From Bdellovibrio sp. 22V (GTDB taxonomy: Bacteria; Bdellovibrionota; Bdellovibrionia; Bdellovibrionales; Bdellovibrionaceae): a DNA stretch of 64,000 nt. The stretch is from positions 1,240,001-1,304,000 of the forward strand of contig NZ_CP125854.1 in assembly GCF_030169785.1 (NCBI RefSeq), written 5' to 3'. The notes under the pieces are model-generated. The model worked only from the letters and a program-made list of their open reading frames with translations. It ran no database searches and was not told the DNA's origin. Shown here piece after piece: positions 19,285-27,175 of this stretch (position 1 is the stretch's first letter; each line of letters opens with the position of its first letter). The translations under genes and the position numbers were made by a program.

Positions 19285-21516
19285 GTGAAAAGAAACACAA
19301 CGGAACGTCTCATGCTTACGGTCTTCTTTTTATTGCTGGCAGTATCGGCGGAAGCTATTAATACGGCTTCCGAAGGGTTCAAACTTCTGCACGGCACCTC
19401 GATGAGTATTCCCGTCCATAGCAGCTGTAAGCTTCTTACCAACACTCATGCAACGAAAGACTACTTTGTTCCGACTCTGAATTTAACGGGATGGACGACA
19501 TTTCTTTCTAATAAACCGGCTGCCGTGCAAACAAAAGATTGCCGCTCGTGCAAAGAGATCAAAGACAATGGCGGAGCTTGGACCGGCAGCGGCATGTACT
19601 ATATAGATCCCGATGGCGCCGGTGCCAACGTTCCCTACGTCACTTACTGTGACATGACGACGGACGGTGGTGGGTGGACGCTGGTGTGGAGTAATACTCG
19701 CGGCGGTACAAATAAGCCTTTCACTAATATGAGTTTTTACGATGTGACGACGGCGTCTCTGCCTCGTTGTTCCGTCGCAAACGGAAGCACTTCGGCCAGT
19801 GGCGCGAACTGCACATCAGTCACTAGTAATAAAGAGCAGTTCAACTATTTCGTTAGTTTGAACCAATGGAATAACATCGCCAATCAACGCAAGTATATGG
19901 ACTTCCTGTATGAGTGGCGAACGGATTATGGGAAAGCCGTAGCGCAAGCCGCGAAGCTCGCGTTGGAAAAGTTCGATCCGTTCCGGCAGTACACGATCAA
20001 TCTTTCGAATCTCTCCCATATTACGGGCACGGTGGCGCCGGGAGTTTATGCTTATCATAACAACAGAGCTATGACCTCCGTTGATACAAATGTCACTATC
20101 GCCGGCACGATTTGCGGAACGAGCTATAGCAATAGCCCTTTCTGGTATCTTTCTTGTTGGACAGGCTCTTTCTTTGGTGGCGGAGAAACCTCTGCAGGCG
20201 GTTACGTTAACGGTGCTTACTGGACGGGCACGACGAAAGCGTTTGCAACAGATGCGGATGCCTCTGCGGGAGCGGCCGGAGGTAATGGTTGGTACTTCGT
20301 GCGTGAGTACGACACGTATGCGAATTGTTACGAACATAAAAAACTTGCGGGTGCGACAACGGATGGACTCTATACGATTGATCCCGACGGACCCGGCGGC
20401 AATGCCCCTTTTCAAGCTTACTGCGACATGACGACCGATGGTGGCGGTTGGACTCGGGTCTTCAGACACAATATTTCGGGAGGATATTTTGCCGACTTTG
20501 CAGCGGCTCTGTCCTCGAATCTCGCCGATCCAACGAATGCCAAGTATTCGATTCTGAATAAGTTAGAAAATTTCCGCACGCATGGAAAATTCTTTTTCCG
20601 TCTGACGTGGCCGGGATACACACAAAGAAATATCTGGTATCAAGCGACGAACCCAACGACGGACGTGGATGTCGGCGGTTATTATCCGCACACGATTGAT
20701 CTGAACACGAACTTTTGGGGTGGACTTGAATACGGTAACGGCACGCATGGTCCGGTTAATAATAACAACTCCCTGCTGGACGGTTCCGTTGAATCAGGCA
20801 ACTGGTGGTTTGCCGTGGGATCTTTGGTTGCCTACGGCACTCCGGCGGGAATTCCTTCATCAGGAACACTCTCTTCTGGGGGCGTTTCCGAGGTGAATCT
20901 TTGGGTAAAAGAAATTGATCCTCCGCAAGTGTATGCTTCATGTAAGGCGATTTTGGATGCAGGTTACGCTTATGGAGATGGCATTTACTATATCGATACG
21001 GATGGCTCTGGAAATAACAATCCTCCTTTTCCCGTCTACTGTGACATGAGTTCTGATGGCGGAGGCTGGACGCGAATCTTCGCTCACGATATTGCAGGAG
21101 GATACTTTGCAAATGGCACCGAGGCTCGTTCGGTGAATCCGTACTATCCGACAGCATCGAAGTATTCGATTTTAAATAAGCTTGAAAGCTTCCGTCGCTC
21201 TGGAAAATTTGAATTGCGTATCAACTGGCCGGGCTACACGCCGAAAAACATCTGGACTCAAACAAGCAACTTCACTTCACAAGCTGTTGCAGGGTACACG
21301 GCCGTTTCTATCGGTTGTTCTTCGAACTATTGGGGTGGACTCGAATTTAATAGTGACACTACGTCCGTTCTATCTGACGGTTCCGTGAATCACTCGAATT
21401 GGTTCTTTGCTATCGGGTCCTACGTTGCATGGGGAACGCCAGCAGGATTGCCTGCGTGTGAAGACATGGCTGGCGCCAACGTGGGCGTTCCCAAAGTGGA
21501 ATTGTGGGTTAAGTAG
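19285..21516 (+). CDS. Exported protein with three fibrinogen-like YCDM/GGGW domains
   Basis: 743 residues. It starts at GTG 19285, which gives a good Sec signal peptide (MKRNTTERLMLTVFFLLLAVSAEA); the later ATG at 19312 would lose the basic n-region. Three copies of a fibrinogen-C-like unit follow, starting near 19545, 20329 and 20941. Each has an early Cys, Y-x-ID-x-DG, then YCDM and DGGGWT. Units 2 and 3 also share a long second half (KYSILNKLE-F, RWPGYT-like, GGLE, DGSV, GTPAG), while unit 1 has a different one. Related eukaryotic domains bind acetylated sugars. An outer-surface or secreted prey-binding role is inferred. It converges on the nucleosidase gene with an 8-bp overlap. Confidence 0.88.
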   Translation: MKRNTTERLMLTVFFLLLAVSAEAINTASEGFKLLHGTSMSIPVHSSCKLLTNTHATKDYFVPTLNLTGWTTFLSNKPAAVQTKDCRSCKEIKDNGGAWTGSGMYYIDPDGAGANVPYVTYCDMTTDGGGWTLVWSNTRGGTNKPFTNMSFYDVTTASLPRCSVANGSTSASGANCTSVTSNKEQFNYFVSLNQWNNIANQRKYMDFLYEWRTDYGKAVAQAAKLALEKFDPFRQYTINLSNLSHITGTVAPGVYAYHNNRAMTSVDTNVTIAGTICGTSYSNSPFWYLSCWTGSFFGGGETSAGGYVNGAYWTGTTKAFATDADASAGAAGGNGWYFVREYDTYANCYEHKKLAGATTDGLYTIDPDGPGGNAPFQAYCDMTTDGGGWTRVFRHNISGGYFADFAAALSSNLADPTNAKYSILNKLENFRTHGKFFFRLTWPGYTQRNIWYQATNPTTDVDVGGYYPHTIDLNTNFWGGLEYGNGTHGPVNNNNSLLDGSVESGNWWFAVGSLVAYGTPAGIPSSGTLSSGGVSEVNLWVKEIDPPQVYASCKAILDAGYAYGDGIYYIDTDGSGNNNPPFPVYCDMSSDGGGWTRIFAHDIAGGYFANGTEARSVNPYYPTASKYSILNKLESFRRSGKFELRINWPGYTPKNIWTQTSNFTSQAVAGYTAVSIGCSSNYWGGLEFNSDTTSVLSDGSVNHSNWFFAIGSYVAWGTPAGLPACEDMAGANVGVPKVELWVK

Positions 21517-22568: not shown

Positions 22569-22814
22569 GCAAAACTCCTCGCTCCCCCATCTTATTGGGA
22601 AAATCCAGAGTCAGTAAAGCAACTCCGGCCCCGCGATGAATAGGCGAAGTCTTACTCAGGACGTTTATCCCAGAACTGGACTTTTCACTGGCAACATTAC
22701 TGGGGCGTCAGGGCAATTACCAATCAAGCCTGGGTAGAATTTTCGGATCTCTAAACGACACATTATATATGAGAGAAAATTACTAATTATTGTTAAAACC
22801 TGATGAAAATCACG

Positions 22815-22821
22815 CCGATAA
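22815..22821 (+). promoter_or_regulatory. CCGATAA -10-like element before the fibre gene
   Basis: GCCGATAA (22814-22821), an exact match to the FliA -10 consensus, ends 7 nt before the ATG at 22829. That is the same distance as in the two genes at 18704-19183 and 19285-21516. The CTCATYTTT block is absent. A partial FliA -35 match, TAAAACCT, lies 12 nt upstream of the octamer. By position it predicts a leaderless mRNA. Confidence 0.42.
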
Positions 22822-22828
22822 GTTACTT

Positions 22829-25800
22829 ATGAAACTTACCGGAACGTTGCTTCTCATTTTAATACTTCCTCTGCTGTCTTTCGCCGGCCCGAATTCTTTG
22901 ACCTATCAGGGACGTATTTTAAAAGTCGATGGAACTCCCCTCGAGTACAATAACGTCAGTTTCAGTTTTGAAGTCACAAGTCCCGATGGTCTTTGCGTTC
23001 TCTATCGCGAACAAGTGAATGGCATTAACATGACCAACTCCGGAGGCGTTTTCGATGTCGCTATCGGCAGCGGCTCTAAGAGTTATCCTGCCGCCGCGGG
23101 ATTCAAACTGCTCGATTCGTTTGTGAATGCAGGAACGCTCAACTGTGATGGCGGTTCGACTTTTACTCCCGGCTTTGATGATATTCGCAAGCTGCGCGTG
23201 CAGTTTCATGATGGTTCCGGCTGGAAAGTGATTTCTCCCGATTCAGAAATTCGTTCAGTGCCTTACGCTGGTTATTCTTACTCGGCAACAAAACTGGGAA
23301 CGAACAGCGCTTCGGACTTTTTGCTGAAAGCGGGAATTCCCACTTGTGGCGCCGGGACATTTCTTTCCTGGAATGGCTCGGCGTTAAGCTGTGCTGCCGT
23401 AGCGGGAGCCAGTGGCGGTACAGTTACGGATGTGACCTCTGCAAATTCTTACCTGACGATTATTAATGGCACGTCAACTCCGCAACTGACTTTGAATGTC
23501 GGTTCAACCGCGAACACTGTTGCTGCGGGTGATGATCCCCGTCTTTCAGATGCGAGAACTCCAACGGGAACTGCGGGTGGTGATCTTAGCAACACGTACC
23601 CAAATCCGAAGGTCGCGAAAATTCAAGGTGTCACCGTTTCGACAACGGCTCCGAATAGTGGCGAGTATTTTAAATACAACGGTTCGCAATGGATTCCCAC
23701 GGTTATCACGACGTCTGACGTTTCGGGACTAGCGGCGGCTTTAAGCGGTTATGTTACGCAGTCTTATTTCAGTAATGCCGTTGCAAGTGCGAACTGTGCC
23801 CAACATCAAACGATGTATTGGGAAGCAGCGACGAATAGCTTTAAGTGTATGGCCATTAATGTCAGTGTCGCTGGAGACGTTAGCGGGACGATTGGTGCCG
23901 TGAGTGTCGATAAAATCAAAGGCGTGGCTCTTGATTTTTCAACGGCTCCGACAAGTGGGCAGACATTGAAATTTAACGGCACGAGTTGGGCCCCCGCGAA
24001 CGACAACAATGCGGGCGGAACCATCACCGCTTTGACGGGAGACGTTTCCGCAAGCGGATCAGGTTCTGTGGCGGCGACAGTGAATTCTGTCGGCGGATCT
24101 TCGGCAGCAAATATTCATAATGCCGAGCTTGCCGCGAATGCCGCAACCGATGCGAATACAGTTTCGACAATTGTTAAAAGAGATGCTTCCGGAAACTTCG
24201 CCGCAGGCACTGCGACGTTAAGCAAAGTTATTTTGAAAGACTCCGGTTCGAATACGGTCACTTTGCAAGCTCCTAGTACCGTCACAACAAATTACGTTTT
24301 GAAATTTCCGGCGGCTCAAGGCGGCGCGAATCAAATGCTTCTGAACGACGGCGCAGGAAATCTTTCTTGGACAAGCTTGTCTTCCGTGGGCGTGACCAGT
24401 GTGGCCGTGACATCTCCGATTACGAATTCGGGAACAGCGTCTGCACCTAATATCGGAATTCAACAAGCCAACGGTTCACAGGCAGGTTATCTATCCAGTG
24501 CGGATTGGACCTCTTTCAACAATAAACTGGGCACGAGTTTGAACTCGGGAAATATCTGGATCGGTAACGGCTCGAATGTCGCAACGGCAGTTGTTCCGGC
24601 GGGTGACGTGACGGTTTCAAACACAGGCGCGACACTTGTTGGAAAAATTCAAGGTACCGGCGTTGTCAGCACGACTCCGACGGCAACAAATAATCTTTTT
24701 AAATACAATGGGACAAATTGGGCGCCTGGATTCATTGGTGTTGCGGATATTCGTTCGACGGCAGCAGGCAATGCGCAGTTTTTCCCGACAACGTGTACGG
24801 CGGCGCAAACCCTGAATTGGGAATCGGCGACGGATAAATATATTTGCACGAATATCGCGATTGGTGATTCACAAATCACTTATGCGGCGAAAGCGGCGAA
24901 AACATTTTTGGCGGCCCCCACAGCGGGAGGCGTTCCCACATTTAGAACAATTGCCTCTTCAGACCTTCCGACAACAGGAGCAGACGGCGCTTACATCAAT
25001 GGTGGCAACTCTTTCGGTGCGAATGCCAGTATTGGCCTGAATGATTCTTACGGATTGGATCTTGAGACTGCGGGAACCCCGCGGGTTTCTATTTCAAACG
25101 CCGGTAAAGTCGGCGTGAACGCAACAAGTCCCTCTTCTCAATTTCAAGTACATGGCCCTGCCAGCGTGCAAACCGATTTTGCAATTGCGACGTTTCAAGA
25201 TTCTTCTAACAACGGGATGAGTTTTGGTGTCGACACCACGAATGGTTGGAGCTGGATGTACTCGCGCACAGCGGGTGTCTCCCCTCGCCCGATTGCTTTC
25301 TTTGCACATAACTCGAATCAAATTCCTGACTTGATCATCGAATCTAACGGTCAAGTGGGTATCGGTACAAAAACGCCGCTGGCGCCATTGAATGTGGTGG
25401 GCAATGCCAATGGCGGAATCGCGATTCAAAAAAGTTCTGATGATAATGGCGGCGCCACCATCGCTTTTGCAAAAGCGCGCGGCACAAATGCAGCACGCAC
25501 GGCCGTGCAAACTGGCGACAGATTGATGGGCCTTTATGGCGCTGGCGCTTACGATGCCACTAATTACTCGACGAATTCCGGCGCGATTCAAATTCTTGCC
25601 GCCGAAAACTTTACGGCGACTGCGAACGGAACCGCGATTGATTTCGGAACAACGCCCCTGGGATCGACGGCTCGGCAAACGAGAATGACGATCACGGCCG
25701 ACGGATATATGGGTGTGGGTACCGCGCTTCCCGATGCCCGACTGCACGTCGCTGGAACAAATTGGGCCAGCAGTTCCATCTATGCGACTCGTTTCGAAAA

Positions 25801-27175
25801 TGCGAATCAATCCGCAGGACACTGGTCTTTGAAAAGTCGTGGCGCCACCGTCGGTTCTTATGCACCTGTTCTTGATAACGATGCTCTGGCGACCTTCGGC
25901 GGAAGCGGCTACTACGGAACGACATCGACAGACTATGCAACGGCCGGGTATTTATCAATCAATGCGGAAAGTGATTGGAGCACCGGCAACACTCCGGGCT
26001 TTGCGCAATTTTTTCTTAACAAAGGCAACGGTTCTTATGCCGTGCCTCTTACTATGACAAGCACTTCGCGCATCGGTATCGGCACGACCTCTCCTTTAAC
26101 AAATCTCCATGTCTCAGGTGCCGCCGACGGAGATGTTGGTAGTTATCTCATAAATGCCGATGATGGCGATCCAAACTCAAGAGCTATTTTCTTACTTGGA
26201 ACAGCAACGACGGGCACAAGATATGGTTACATGTCACATCAAGGTGCCGGTTACACAGCCACCGGTGCACTTAAACCGCGCACAACTGTTGTTTCCGGAA
26301 CTGATACCGGCGGTCTGAATTTGATGGCGAACAATCAAATCGGTCTTTGGATTGGCAATAATGAAAAAATGCGCGTGGCTGCGAATGGATATATCGGGAT
26401 TGGTACGGACACCCCTCGACAACCTCTTGAGATTAATAAAGGCCACATCTTCCATACCGGAGGAGATTTGGTTTATTATTTCAACTCTTACCACAACGGC
26501 ACTCAGAGGTACGGCGGATACGGCGGTGGCTCTGCATATGCTGGCGGCATGGGTTTTACTCCTTCAACAGGAAGTTTGTATTTCGTGACTTCTTCGGTCG
26601 CGGGAGCCACAGATGCGGCGGTTTCTGGCTCTAGCACTAGAATGATAATTGATAGAAACGGAAATGTCGGTATCGGCACGGGAACGCCTTCTTACAACTT
26701 GCACGTTATCGGCAACGCGGGCTTGAGTACGGGAACGGCATGGACAAATGCTTCAGATATTCGACTGAAGGATATTCACGGCGATTACGAATATGGATTG
26801 AACGAAATTCTGCAGCTGCACACCGTTCGCTATAACTATAAAAAAGGAAATGCTTTAGGCTTACCGTCCGATCACAACATGACAGGTTTCATCGCCCAAG
26901 AAGTGCAAAAAGTAATTCCTGACGCCGTCAAAGTTAGAAAAGACGGCTACCTAGAATTGAACGTCGACCCTATCCACTGGGCCACAGTCAACGCCGTCAA
27001 AGAACTCCATGGCTTATGCAAACAAAGCGAAGCTCAAATGAAGTCGATTGACGAAAGACTCAACTCCCACGACAGAGAAATCGCATCCCTCAAAGAAGAA
27101 AACCGCCAACTCAAAGAACAGTTAGAAAAACAAAACAAAGACCTAGAAGCCATCAAAAAGAAATTGGGTCTCTAA
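22829..27175 (+). CDS. Large fibre-type adhesin with C-terminal S74 chaperone domain
   Basis: 1448 residues from the ATG at 22829; an upstream in-frame TTG at 22790 only adds residues before the signal peptide MKLTGTLLLILILPLLSFA. The N-terminal module begins LTYQGRILKVDG. Thr/Ser/Gly/Asn-rich repeats follow (GDLSNTYPNP, KYNGSQW). Then come six GxVGIGTxxPxxxLxVxG repeats at about 25109, 25350, 25702, 26065, 26386 and 26659. The end is a Peptidase_S74 intramolecular chaperone domain (SDIRLKDI, GFIAQEVQKVIPDAV) and a coiled-coil tail. S74 proteins fold as trimeric fibres and self-cleave before the chaperone. This resembles the mosaic adhesive trimer fibres of Bdellovibrio, proposed to recognise prey. 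Confidence 0.88.
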   Translation: MKLTGTLLLILILPLLSFAGPNSLTYQGRILKVDGTPLEYNNVSFSFEVTSPDGLCVLYREQVNGINMTNSGGVFDVAIGSGSKSYPAAAGFKLLDSFVNAGTLNCDGGSTFTPGFDDIRKLRVQFHDGSGWKVISPDSEIRSVPYAGYSYSATKLGTNSASDFLLKAGIPTCGAGTFLSWNGSALSCAAVAGASGGTVTDVTSANSYLTIINGTSTPQLTLNVGSTANTVAAGDDPRLSDARTPTGTAGGDLSNTYPNPKVAKIQGVTVSTTAPNSGEYFKYNGSQWIPTVITTSDVSGLAAALSGYVTQSYFSNAVASANCAQHQTMYWEAATNSFKCMAINVSVAGDVSGTIGAVSVDKIKGVALDFSTAPTSGQTLKFNGTSWAPANDNNAGGTITALTGDVSASGSGSVAATVNSVGGSSAANIHNAELAANAATDANTVSTIVKRDASGNFAAGTATLSKVILKDSGSNTVTLQAPSTVTTNYVLKFPAAQGGANQMLLNDGAGNLSWTSLSSVGVTSVAVTSPITNSGTASAPNIGIQQANGSQAGYLSSADWTSFNNKLGTSLNSGNIWIGNGSNVATAVVPAGDVTVSNTGATLVGKIQGTGVVSTTPTATNNLFKYNGTNWAPGFIGVADIRSTAAGNAQFFPTTCTAAQTLNWESATDKYICTNIAIGDSQITYAAKAAKTFLAAPTAGGVPTFRTIASSDLPTTGADGAYINGGNSFGANASIGLNDSYGLDLETAGTPRVSISNAGKVGVNATSPSSQFQVHGPASVQTDFAIATFQDSSNNGMSFGVDTTNGWSWMYSRTAGVSPRPIAFFAHNSNQIPDLIIESNGQVGIGTKTPLAPLNVVGNANGGIAIQKSSDDNGGATIAFAKARGTNAARTAVQTGDRLMGLYGAGAYDATNYSTNSGAIQILAAENFTATANGTAIDFGTTPLGSTARQTRMTITADGYMGVGTALPDARLHVAGTNWASSSIYATRFENANQSAGHWSLKSRGATVGSYAPVLDNDALATFGGSGYYGTTSTDYATAGYLSINAESDWSTGNTPGFAQFFLNKGNGSYAVPLTMTSTSRIGIGTTSPLTNLHVSGAADGDVGSYLINADDGDPNSRAIFLLGTATTGTRYGYMSHQGAGYTATGALKPRTTVVSGTDTGGLNLMANNQIGLWIGNNEKMRVAANGYIGIGTDTPRQPLEINKGHIFHTGGDLVYYFNSYHNGTQRYGGYGGGSAYAGGMGFTPSTGSLYFVTSSVAGATDAAVSGSSTRMIIDRNGNVGIGTGTPSYNLHVIGNAGLSTGTAWTNASDIRLKDIHGDYEYGLNEILQLHTVRYNYKKGNALGLPSDHNMTGFIAQEVQKVIPDAVKVRKDGYLELNVDPIHWATVNAVKELHGLCKQSEAQMKSIDERLNSHDREIASLKEENRQLKEQLEKQNKDLEAIKKKLGL

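Follow-up and report, generated by a model that had tools for sequence, protein, structure and literature searches.

The window, a stretch of 64,000 nucleotides covering positions 1,240,001–1,304,000 of a 3,601,631-base Bdellovibrio genome (labelled G000), contains a gene at 19285–21516 on the forward strand that occurs at a single locus in this genome. The gene is one open frame with a GTG start codon and encodes a protein of 743 aa; an alternative ATG start corresponds to residue 10. The N-terminus, MKRNTTERLMLTVFFLLLAVSAEA, resembles a Sec signal peptide as judged by eye (residues 1–24; 19285–19356, + strand), and in relatives, too, a hydrophobic leader precedes the following domain. This signal-like N-terminus is the one feature that suggests export, which the original prediction had stated. 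The putative signal peptide is followed by a conserved N-domain of ~62 aa (residues 25–86; 19357–19542, +), delineated by alignment and tied to fibre genes that end in a Peptidase_S74 domain (PF13884, hereafter S74), and by three units: unit 1 (residues 85–344; 19537–20316, +), unit 2 (residues 345–548; 20317–20928, +) and unit 3 (residues 550–743; 20932–21513, +). A fibre gene of the MAT type, ending in S74, lies nearby at 22790–27175 on the same strand (NF053851, the MAT N-terminal domain, E 1e-70). An ortholog of the window gene occupies the syntenic position in genome G021 (74% identity).

The three YCDM...GGGWT units originally read from the sequence are each matched by the model NF040941 (GGGWT_bact), which scores the protein with E 2e-54 and 181.4 bits at a cut-off of 30. 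Since these three are the only NF040941 matches in the whole genome and none was obtained in 14 control genomes, the units are not a chance result. For unit 1, PF00147 (Fibrinogen_C) matches residues 87–314 (profile positions 3–205 of 221; 93.2 bits at a cut-off of 22), the alignment with tenascin extends through the C-terminal half, and a profile built from bacterial relatives of unit 1 can be aligned over the C-terminal part with tenascin, FIBCD1, ficolins and tachylectin. Structures were predicted for unit 1 alone (pLDDT 84, pTM 0.87, with pLDDT below 50 at model residues 184–188 and 208–211) and for residues 25–743 (pLDDT 80, pTM 0.71, with pLDDT below 50 at model residues 232–284, in unit 1). 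The best match of the unit-1 model is M-ficolin (Z 16.3, rmsd 3.3 Å, 192 residues), spanning model residues 1–258 and with them the whole length, and the best Z scores against animal fibrinogen-C domains (FReDs) are 15.0 for unit 2 (model residues 319–522), which is also matched by phrog_16097, and 14.3 for unit 3 (model residues 523–719). Structure prediction of each unit had been suggested as a check, and the models support a FReD fold in all three.

According to the original prediction, unit 1 keeps only the first half of the domain and carries another second half. The PF00147 alignment and the M-ficolin match across the whole model contradict this: unit 1 is a complete, ficolin-like FReD, and the odd one out has been inverted, as it is units 2 and 3 that have the other C-terminal part. 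The full tandem relationship of units 2 and 3 is confirmed (50.5% identity over 200 columns, E 6e-64). Their profile reaches position 110–124 of 189 on some animal FReDs (MFAP4, FGL1, ANGPTL2), and on most others the alignment ends at 44–98 of 189. Past the aligned region, the C-terminal sequence of units 2 and 3 is a different one, which we term W type; unit 1 is of F type, and the letters F, W and D used for unit types are labels coined in this analysis. Both NF040941 and PF00147 match the window protein above their cut-offs, and the FReD fold recurs in all three unit models. Compared with these two families, the window protein is distinguished by one F-type and two W-type units arranged behind a conserved N-domain that lies outside both models.

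The similarity of unit 1 to M-ficolin is the main argument for one alternative reading, in which the protein recognizes acetylated sugars through ficolin-type pockets, independently of any fibre. In ficolin-type lectins, an Asp pair forms the Ca site, and the His after the second cysteine of the P subdomain is a pocket residue. Unit 1 has the same whole fold and the same P-subdomain cysteine pair (Cys277 and Cys291) as the FReDs of ficolins, tachylectin-5A, FIBCD1 and tenascin. The Ca-site position, however, reads D267/N269, with Asn in place of the second Asp, and the residue after the second cysteine is Trp292 instead of the pocket His. Among 25 aligned bacterial F-type units, D-x-D is kept at the Ca site in 19, including the G021 ortholog, in favor of the alternative, and Trp follows the second P-subdomain cysteine in all 25. 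The substitutions at N269 and Trp292 make acetyl-sugar binding by the window protein appear doubtful, and the acetylated-sugar idea of the original prediction loses weight to that extent. In units 2 and 3, the other C-terminal part replaces this subdomain altogether. We consider this fibre-independent reading very unlikely. The window protein further differs from the animal FReDs in being bacterial and in carrying several units per chain.

The N-domain has no match of its own in Pfam or NCBIfam. Its alignment shows the invariant positions G7, C24, N29, F37, F49 and C62, and it is matched in 56 of 368 genomes of the phylum. GGGWT units are present in 15 of 24 Bdellovibrio genomes and genes with both the N-domain and FReD units (N-FReD genes) in 13 of 24. 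Relatives in GTDB family f12 (Bacteriovorax-type) have the same 62-aa N-domain, followed by F, W, D and further units. Across the family, the unit orders behind the N-domain vary (F-W-W, F-W-D, F-W-W-D, W-D, W-W and longer), and each protein carries between one and five GGGWT units of differing type, in agreement with the modular swapping originally proposed. The accompanying idea that the second halves diversify in ligand is plausible: between the window gene and its ortholog, the second halves change faster than the first, but a dN/dS of 0.09–0.16, obtained with saturated dS, indicates purifying selection, and no positive selection was seen in this comparison.

GGGWT domains are not confined to proteins with the N-domain. 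The MATs of genomes G019 (L147:1497–4742) and G018 (L148:1596–4880) end in a GGGWT domain and are a covalent version of the fibre–head pair described below. In G003 (L110:217–3240) and G006 (L154:5679–8702), a chain of Ig-like/OmpL47-like domains is capped by a GGGWT domain, as scanned against domain models for L110 and with our own profiles for L154. Proteins of Myxococcales (L122:2994–5162 and L125:3534–5681) combine a proprotein-convertase P-domain with a C-terminal F-type FReD; the FReD protein of L123 showed no P-domain on scanning, and those of L126 and L127 resemble the L122 and L125 proteins by eye. In these proteins the N-termini look fibre-like, likewise by eye. These FReD proteins of Myxococcales/Deltaproteobacteria were considered as MATs and rejected, with NF053851 giving E 0.0075 in L132 and no match in L122, L123, L125, L126 and L127.

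We analysed the surroundings of genes that encode both the N-domain and GGGWT units. These form 33 clusters, all in Bdellovibrio and f12, where a tandem second head gene is counted with the first and the clusters, being relatives, are not independent. In 26 of the 33 clusters (17 of 17 for f12, 9 of 16 for Bdellovibrio), the head gene is immediately preceded, on the same strand, by a fibre frame ending in S74. At 24 of the 26 junctions, the stop codon of the fibre frame has an ATG or GTG at a distance of −11 to +11 nt; at the other two (L107 and L108), TTG is found at that place. The fibre is a MAT, by its MAT N-terminal domain, in eight of the nine linked Bdellovibrio loci, and in the ninth (L141) it runs off the contig end. 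For f12, the one fibre scanned (L114) matches S74 (PF13884, E 1e-16) and tail-fibre PHROGs; it gave no match to NF053851, and its N-terminus is MAT-like by eye only. In G001, one MAT and two head genes follow each other at about 2.492–2.499 Mb.

Chance adjacency of head and S74 genes was rejected on the rarity of S74 and on a control. S74 matches number 1 to 23 per genome (203 by counts in 21 genomes), and the sole S74 gene of G068 is the partner of its head gene. Behind 59 other S74 genes, the N-domain was found in no case, within fetched downstream stretches of ~3.5 kb (~1 kb for L348 and L352). These 59 genes (40 loci and 20 loci, with one gene common to both sets) were picked by hand and not at random from the matches listed, with known partners excluded; two of them, at 2.419 Mb in the genome of the window and at 1.984 Mb in G021, are partner-type genes that have no head gene behind them.

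The N-domain itself is more widespread. Of 48 N-domain proteins without GGGWT units, 41 were examined, and 10 of these are preceded by an S74 gene, with a spacing of −193 to +93 nt; 31 are unlinked to S74, some of them near contig ends, and confinement of the N-domain to fibre loci is thereby rejected. Four of the ten S74-linked proteins look glycine-rich (L225, L232, L238 and L242), with PF21722 below its cut-off for two and phrog_863 'tail fiber assembly' matching two, and another, L234, has an IPT/TIG domain. At the G021 locus L232:1367–6560, a MAT precedes an N-domain protein whose head looks glycine-rich and is thus gp38-like in composition.

The unlinked Bdellovibrio clusters, 7 of 16, are those of G000 (the window gene), G002 (twice), G008, G009b, G021a and G021b. 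In G002, there is one unlinked tandem pair, and a further gene outside this pair has a partner-type MAT ~240 nt downstream. Just upstream of the head genes of G008, an XRE-like frame (L144:7743–8507; XRE-like by eye) has a C-terminus that matches the 3′ end of MATs, and this remnant, which occupies the very position of the partner MAT in relatives, marks a MAT that was lost while the head genes were kept. The window gene and the six other clusters that have no intact S74 gene upstream speak for a second alternative, in which the protein is a secreted lectin, free or anchored on its own, that does not physically partner the fibre and whose gene simply accompanies fibre genes; the signal-like leader of the protein and the 31 of 41 unlinked N-domain proteins fit this reading as well. 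It is opposed by the adjacency in 26 of 33 clusters, related as these are, by the absence of the N-domain behind all 59 control S74 genes and by the co-occurrence in Bdellovibrio of head genes with one S74 subtype, and we regard it as quite improbable.

We determined this co-occurrence by searching for the partner S74 of G001, which gave one match each in 12 of 24 Bdellovibrio genomes at an identity of at least 57% and at least 140 bits, with the next best match at 93 bits; the threshold was set after this gap had been seen. Partner S74 and N-FReD gene are both present in 12 genomes and both absent in 11; the head gene occurs alone in one (G008) and the fibre alone in none (Fisher 4.8e-6, with no correction for kinship). 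When 86 S74 domains are placed in a tree, those linked to FReD genes group together (5 changes compared to a shuffled mean of 21.2, with 0 of 500 shufflings as low), although they do not form one clade and control rows stand among the linked ones. A clean partner subtype everywhere had to be rejected, as f12 does not show one: the partner S74 of G109 matches 13 of 13 N-FReD genomes and also 7 of 22 hand-picked genomes that have no N-FReD gene (E 1e-15), an unlinked S74 of G027 outscores several linked S74s, and the tree is mixed.

The window gene has no S74 gene upstream, so the gp38-like adjacency to a fibre gene seen in 26 of the 33 family clusters is missing here. The genome does contain a partner-type MAT of 1,478 aa at 2,415,215–2,419,648 (MAT N-terminal domain E 5e-29), 1.15 Mb from the window gene, whose S74 groups in the tree with the Bdellovibrio partners (97/94) and which has no companion head gene downstream. 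G021, also unlinked, likewise has one partner-type MAT elsewhere. The adjoining MAT at 22790–27175 was considered as the cognate fibre and rejected. It starts 1.27 kb downstream of the window gene on the same strand, with two opposite-strand genes between; in the tree, a weakly supported fork separates its S74 from the partner rows, and this S74 is absent from the partner-S74 matches at E 1e-20; and the syntenic locus of G021 (L136) has no MAT at this place, which indicates a lineage-specific gain or loss. The proximity of the window gene to this MAT is probably not a functional link. The window protein itself shows no match to NF053851 at E up to 1.

Sequence relatives of the W-type part are also found in phages. 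The W part occurs in 51 of 50,697 phage records, all of them Vibrio phages, and is annotated, among the 40 of 51 listed, as hinge or tail connector, as hypothetical or not at all; its match to phrog_16097 'hinge connector' has E 7.6e-44. In phage KVP40, the gp35 gene lies 8 bp behind the gp34 fibre gene. The N-terminal ~340 residues of KVP40 gp35 (L157:3819–6503) are W-type, split by an insert of ~180 residues that resembles, by eye only, a carbohydrate-binding module, and the W part starts where the GGGWT half would end; none of three phage gp35 proteins examined has a GGGWT half. The window protein and KVP40 gp35 thus share the W-type part by sequence, and gp35, like the linked heads, has a fibre gene directly upstream, whereas it lacks the GGGWT half, contains the insert and is a virion protein. 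GGGWT relatives were found at 72 viral contig loci, with no N-domain in any of them and S74 nearby in two. At viral contig locus L290:3076–6639, an S74 frame is directly followed by two GGGWT frames, a cassette that lacks the N-domain. F-type units were found neither in the phage records nor, by pattern, in the viral contigs, with the exception of L250:5956–7970, where a W-type frame lies close to an F-type FReD frame with Asp and Cys motifs. W units were not found on plasmids. A marine phage protein is termed 'fibrinogen-like coiled coil' in a passage of PMC3909814.

These phage relatives open a third alternative, namely that the protein serves as a structural connector or fibre assembly helper, comparable to the gp35 hinge or to the chaperone gp38 of T4, and is not a ligand-binding head. 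The W part corresponds to the N-terminal part of gp35 from KVP40, the gene of which starts 8 bp after gp34, its phrog_16097 match is to a hinge connector, T4 gp38 is described in passages of PMC6957217 and PMC12892980 as the chaperone of gp37, and the order of the genes would suit a chaperone as well. One to five GGGWT units of varied type nevertheless exceed what a chaperone needs; the three phage gp35 proteins lack the GGGWT half and the 72 viral GGGWT loci lack the N-domain; and GGGWT domains also stand at the ends of MAT and Ig-chain proteins. On balance, a connector or assembly helper seems unlikely.

We favor, with a probability of roughly 0.6, the reading that the product of the window gene is exported and serves as an adhesin head, made separately from the phage-like trimeric surface fibre (the MAT) to which it would belong, because of the adjacency to S74 genes, the co-occurrence in Bdellovibrio and the 0 of 59 result in the control. 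The cognate MAT with its C-terminal S74 would trimerise, and the S74 chaperone would cut itself off, as shown for another MAT, Bd3182 (PMC10769870). The N-domain of the window protein would then dock on the freed fibre, and the string of FReDs, one ficolin-like and two of W type, would be displayed at the fibre tip and bind ligands on the prey surface. Export, docking, tip presentation and prey binding are inferred, whereas computation shows the FReD units, the architecture of the family, the coupling of the genes, the co-occurrence in Bdellovibrio and the partner-type MAT in the genome of the window. In the genome of the window, where head and cognate-type MAT are 1.15 Mb apart, the head would act in trans. 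That a GGGWT domain terminates MATs in G018 and G019 adds a point in favor of a tip adhesin, while the window gene without upstream S74, the 7 of 16 unlinked Bdellovibrio clusters, the 31 of 41 unlinked N-domain proteins that have no GGGWT units, the mixed subtype in f12, the lack of a Pfam or NCBIfam match for the N-domain and the position of the W part in the hinge connector of KVP40-like phages, away from the tip, count against it. The role in prey-surface binding that the original prediction had found attractive takes a more specific form here, and is supported indirectly, through the genetic coupling to S74 fibre and MAT genes and the GGGWT-ended MATs of two genomes.

Two known systems come close to this arrangement. 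According to passages of PMC10769870, Bdellovibrio MATs are displayed on the surface and carry tips of TNF-like, C-type lectin or beta-sandwich type within the fibre chain. Surface adhesion and diversified tips are common to both, and MATs are the genetic partners in Bdellovibrio; the head described here is a separate protein, whereas MAT tips are described as belonging to the fibre itself. The words 'operon' and 'fibrinogen' do not occur in the main text of that paper. The proposed arrangement would function as the pair of gp37 and gp38 does in T2-type phages (S16, PP01), where, as passages of PMC12892980 describe, a separate receptor-binding tip protein is attached by its N-terminus to a trimeric fibre. 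Some N-domain relatives look glycine-rich, as gp38 does. Unlike gp38, the window protein has FReD units in place of the poly-glycine II lattice that characterizes the heads of the gp38 family (PMC12892980), is bacterial with an apparent export leader and has no demonstrated sequence relation to it. Among open-access papers, taken without supplements, a search for Bdellovibrio and fibrinogen yielded nothing on the topic by title, and one for fibrinogen-like domains and Myxococc yielded none. The domain described here is known, but its arrangement is new, and it is strongly linked, at the genetic level, to a fibre system for recognizing prey.

It has long been asked how Bdellovibrio recognizes many prey. 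MATs, whose tips are built into the fibre, provided an initial answer, and recognition would gain a second layer through a head that is made separately and has a docking domain of its own. At an evenly balanced level of confidence, we propose that the fibre system of predatory Bdellovibrionota has two components, an S74-processed MAT and a separately encoded, interchangeable head made of FReDs, glycine-rich or other modules, joined through a dedicated N-domain. Such a system would realize the gp37/gp38 principle in a free-living bacterium. The MAT of G001 with its two head genes offers a concrete, testable pair. The W part ties a predator protein to the long tail fibres of phages, and the FReD heads would be bacterial counterparts of the animal lectins that recognize microbes, placing FReDs in bacteria that attack bacteria, as ficolins act against microbes in animals. 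If the proposal is true, prey range could change by the swap of a head gene, with the fibre left untouched.
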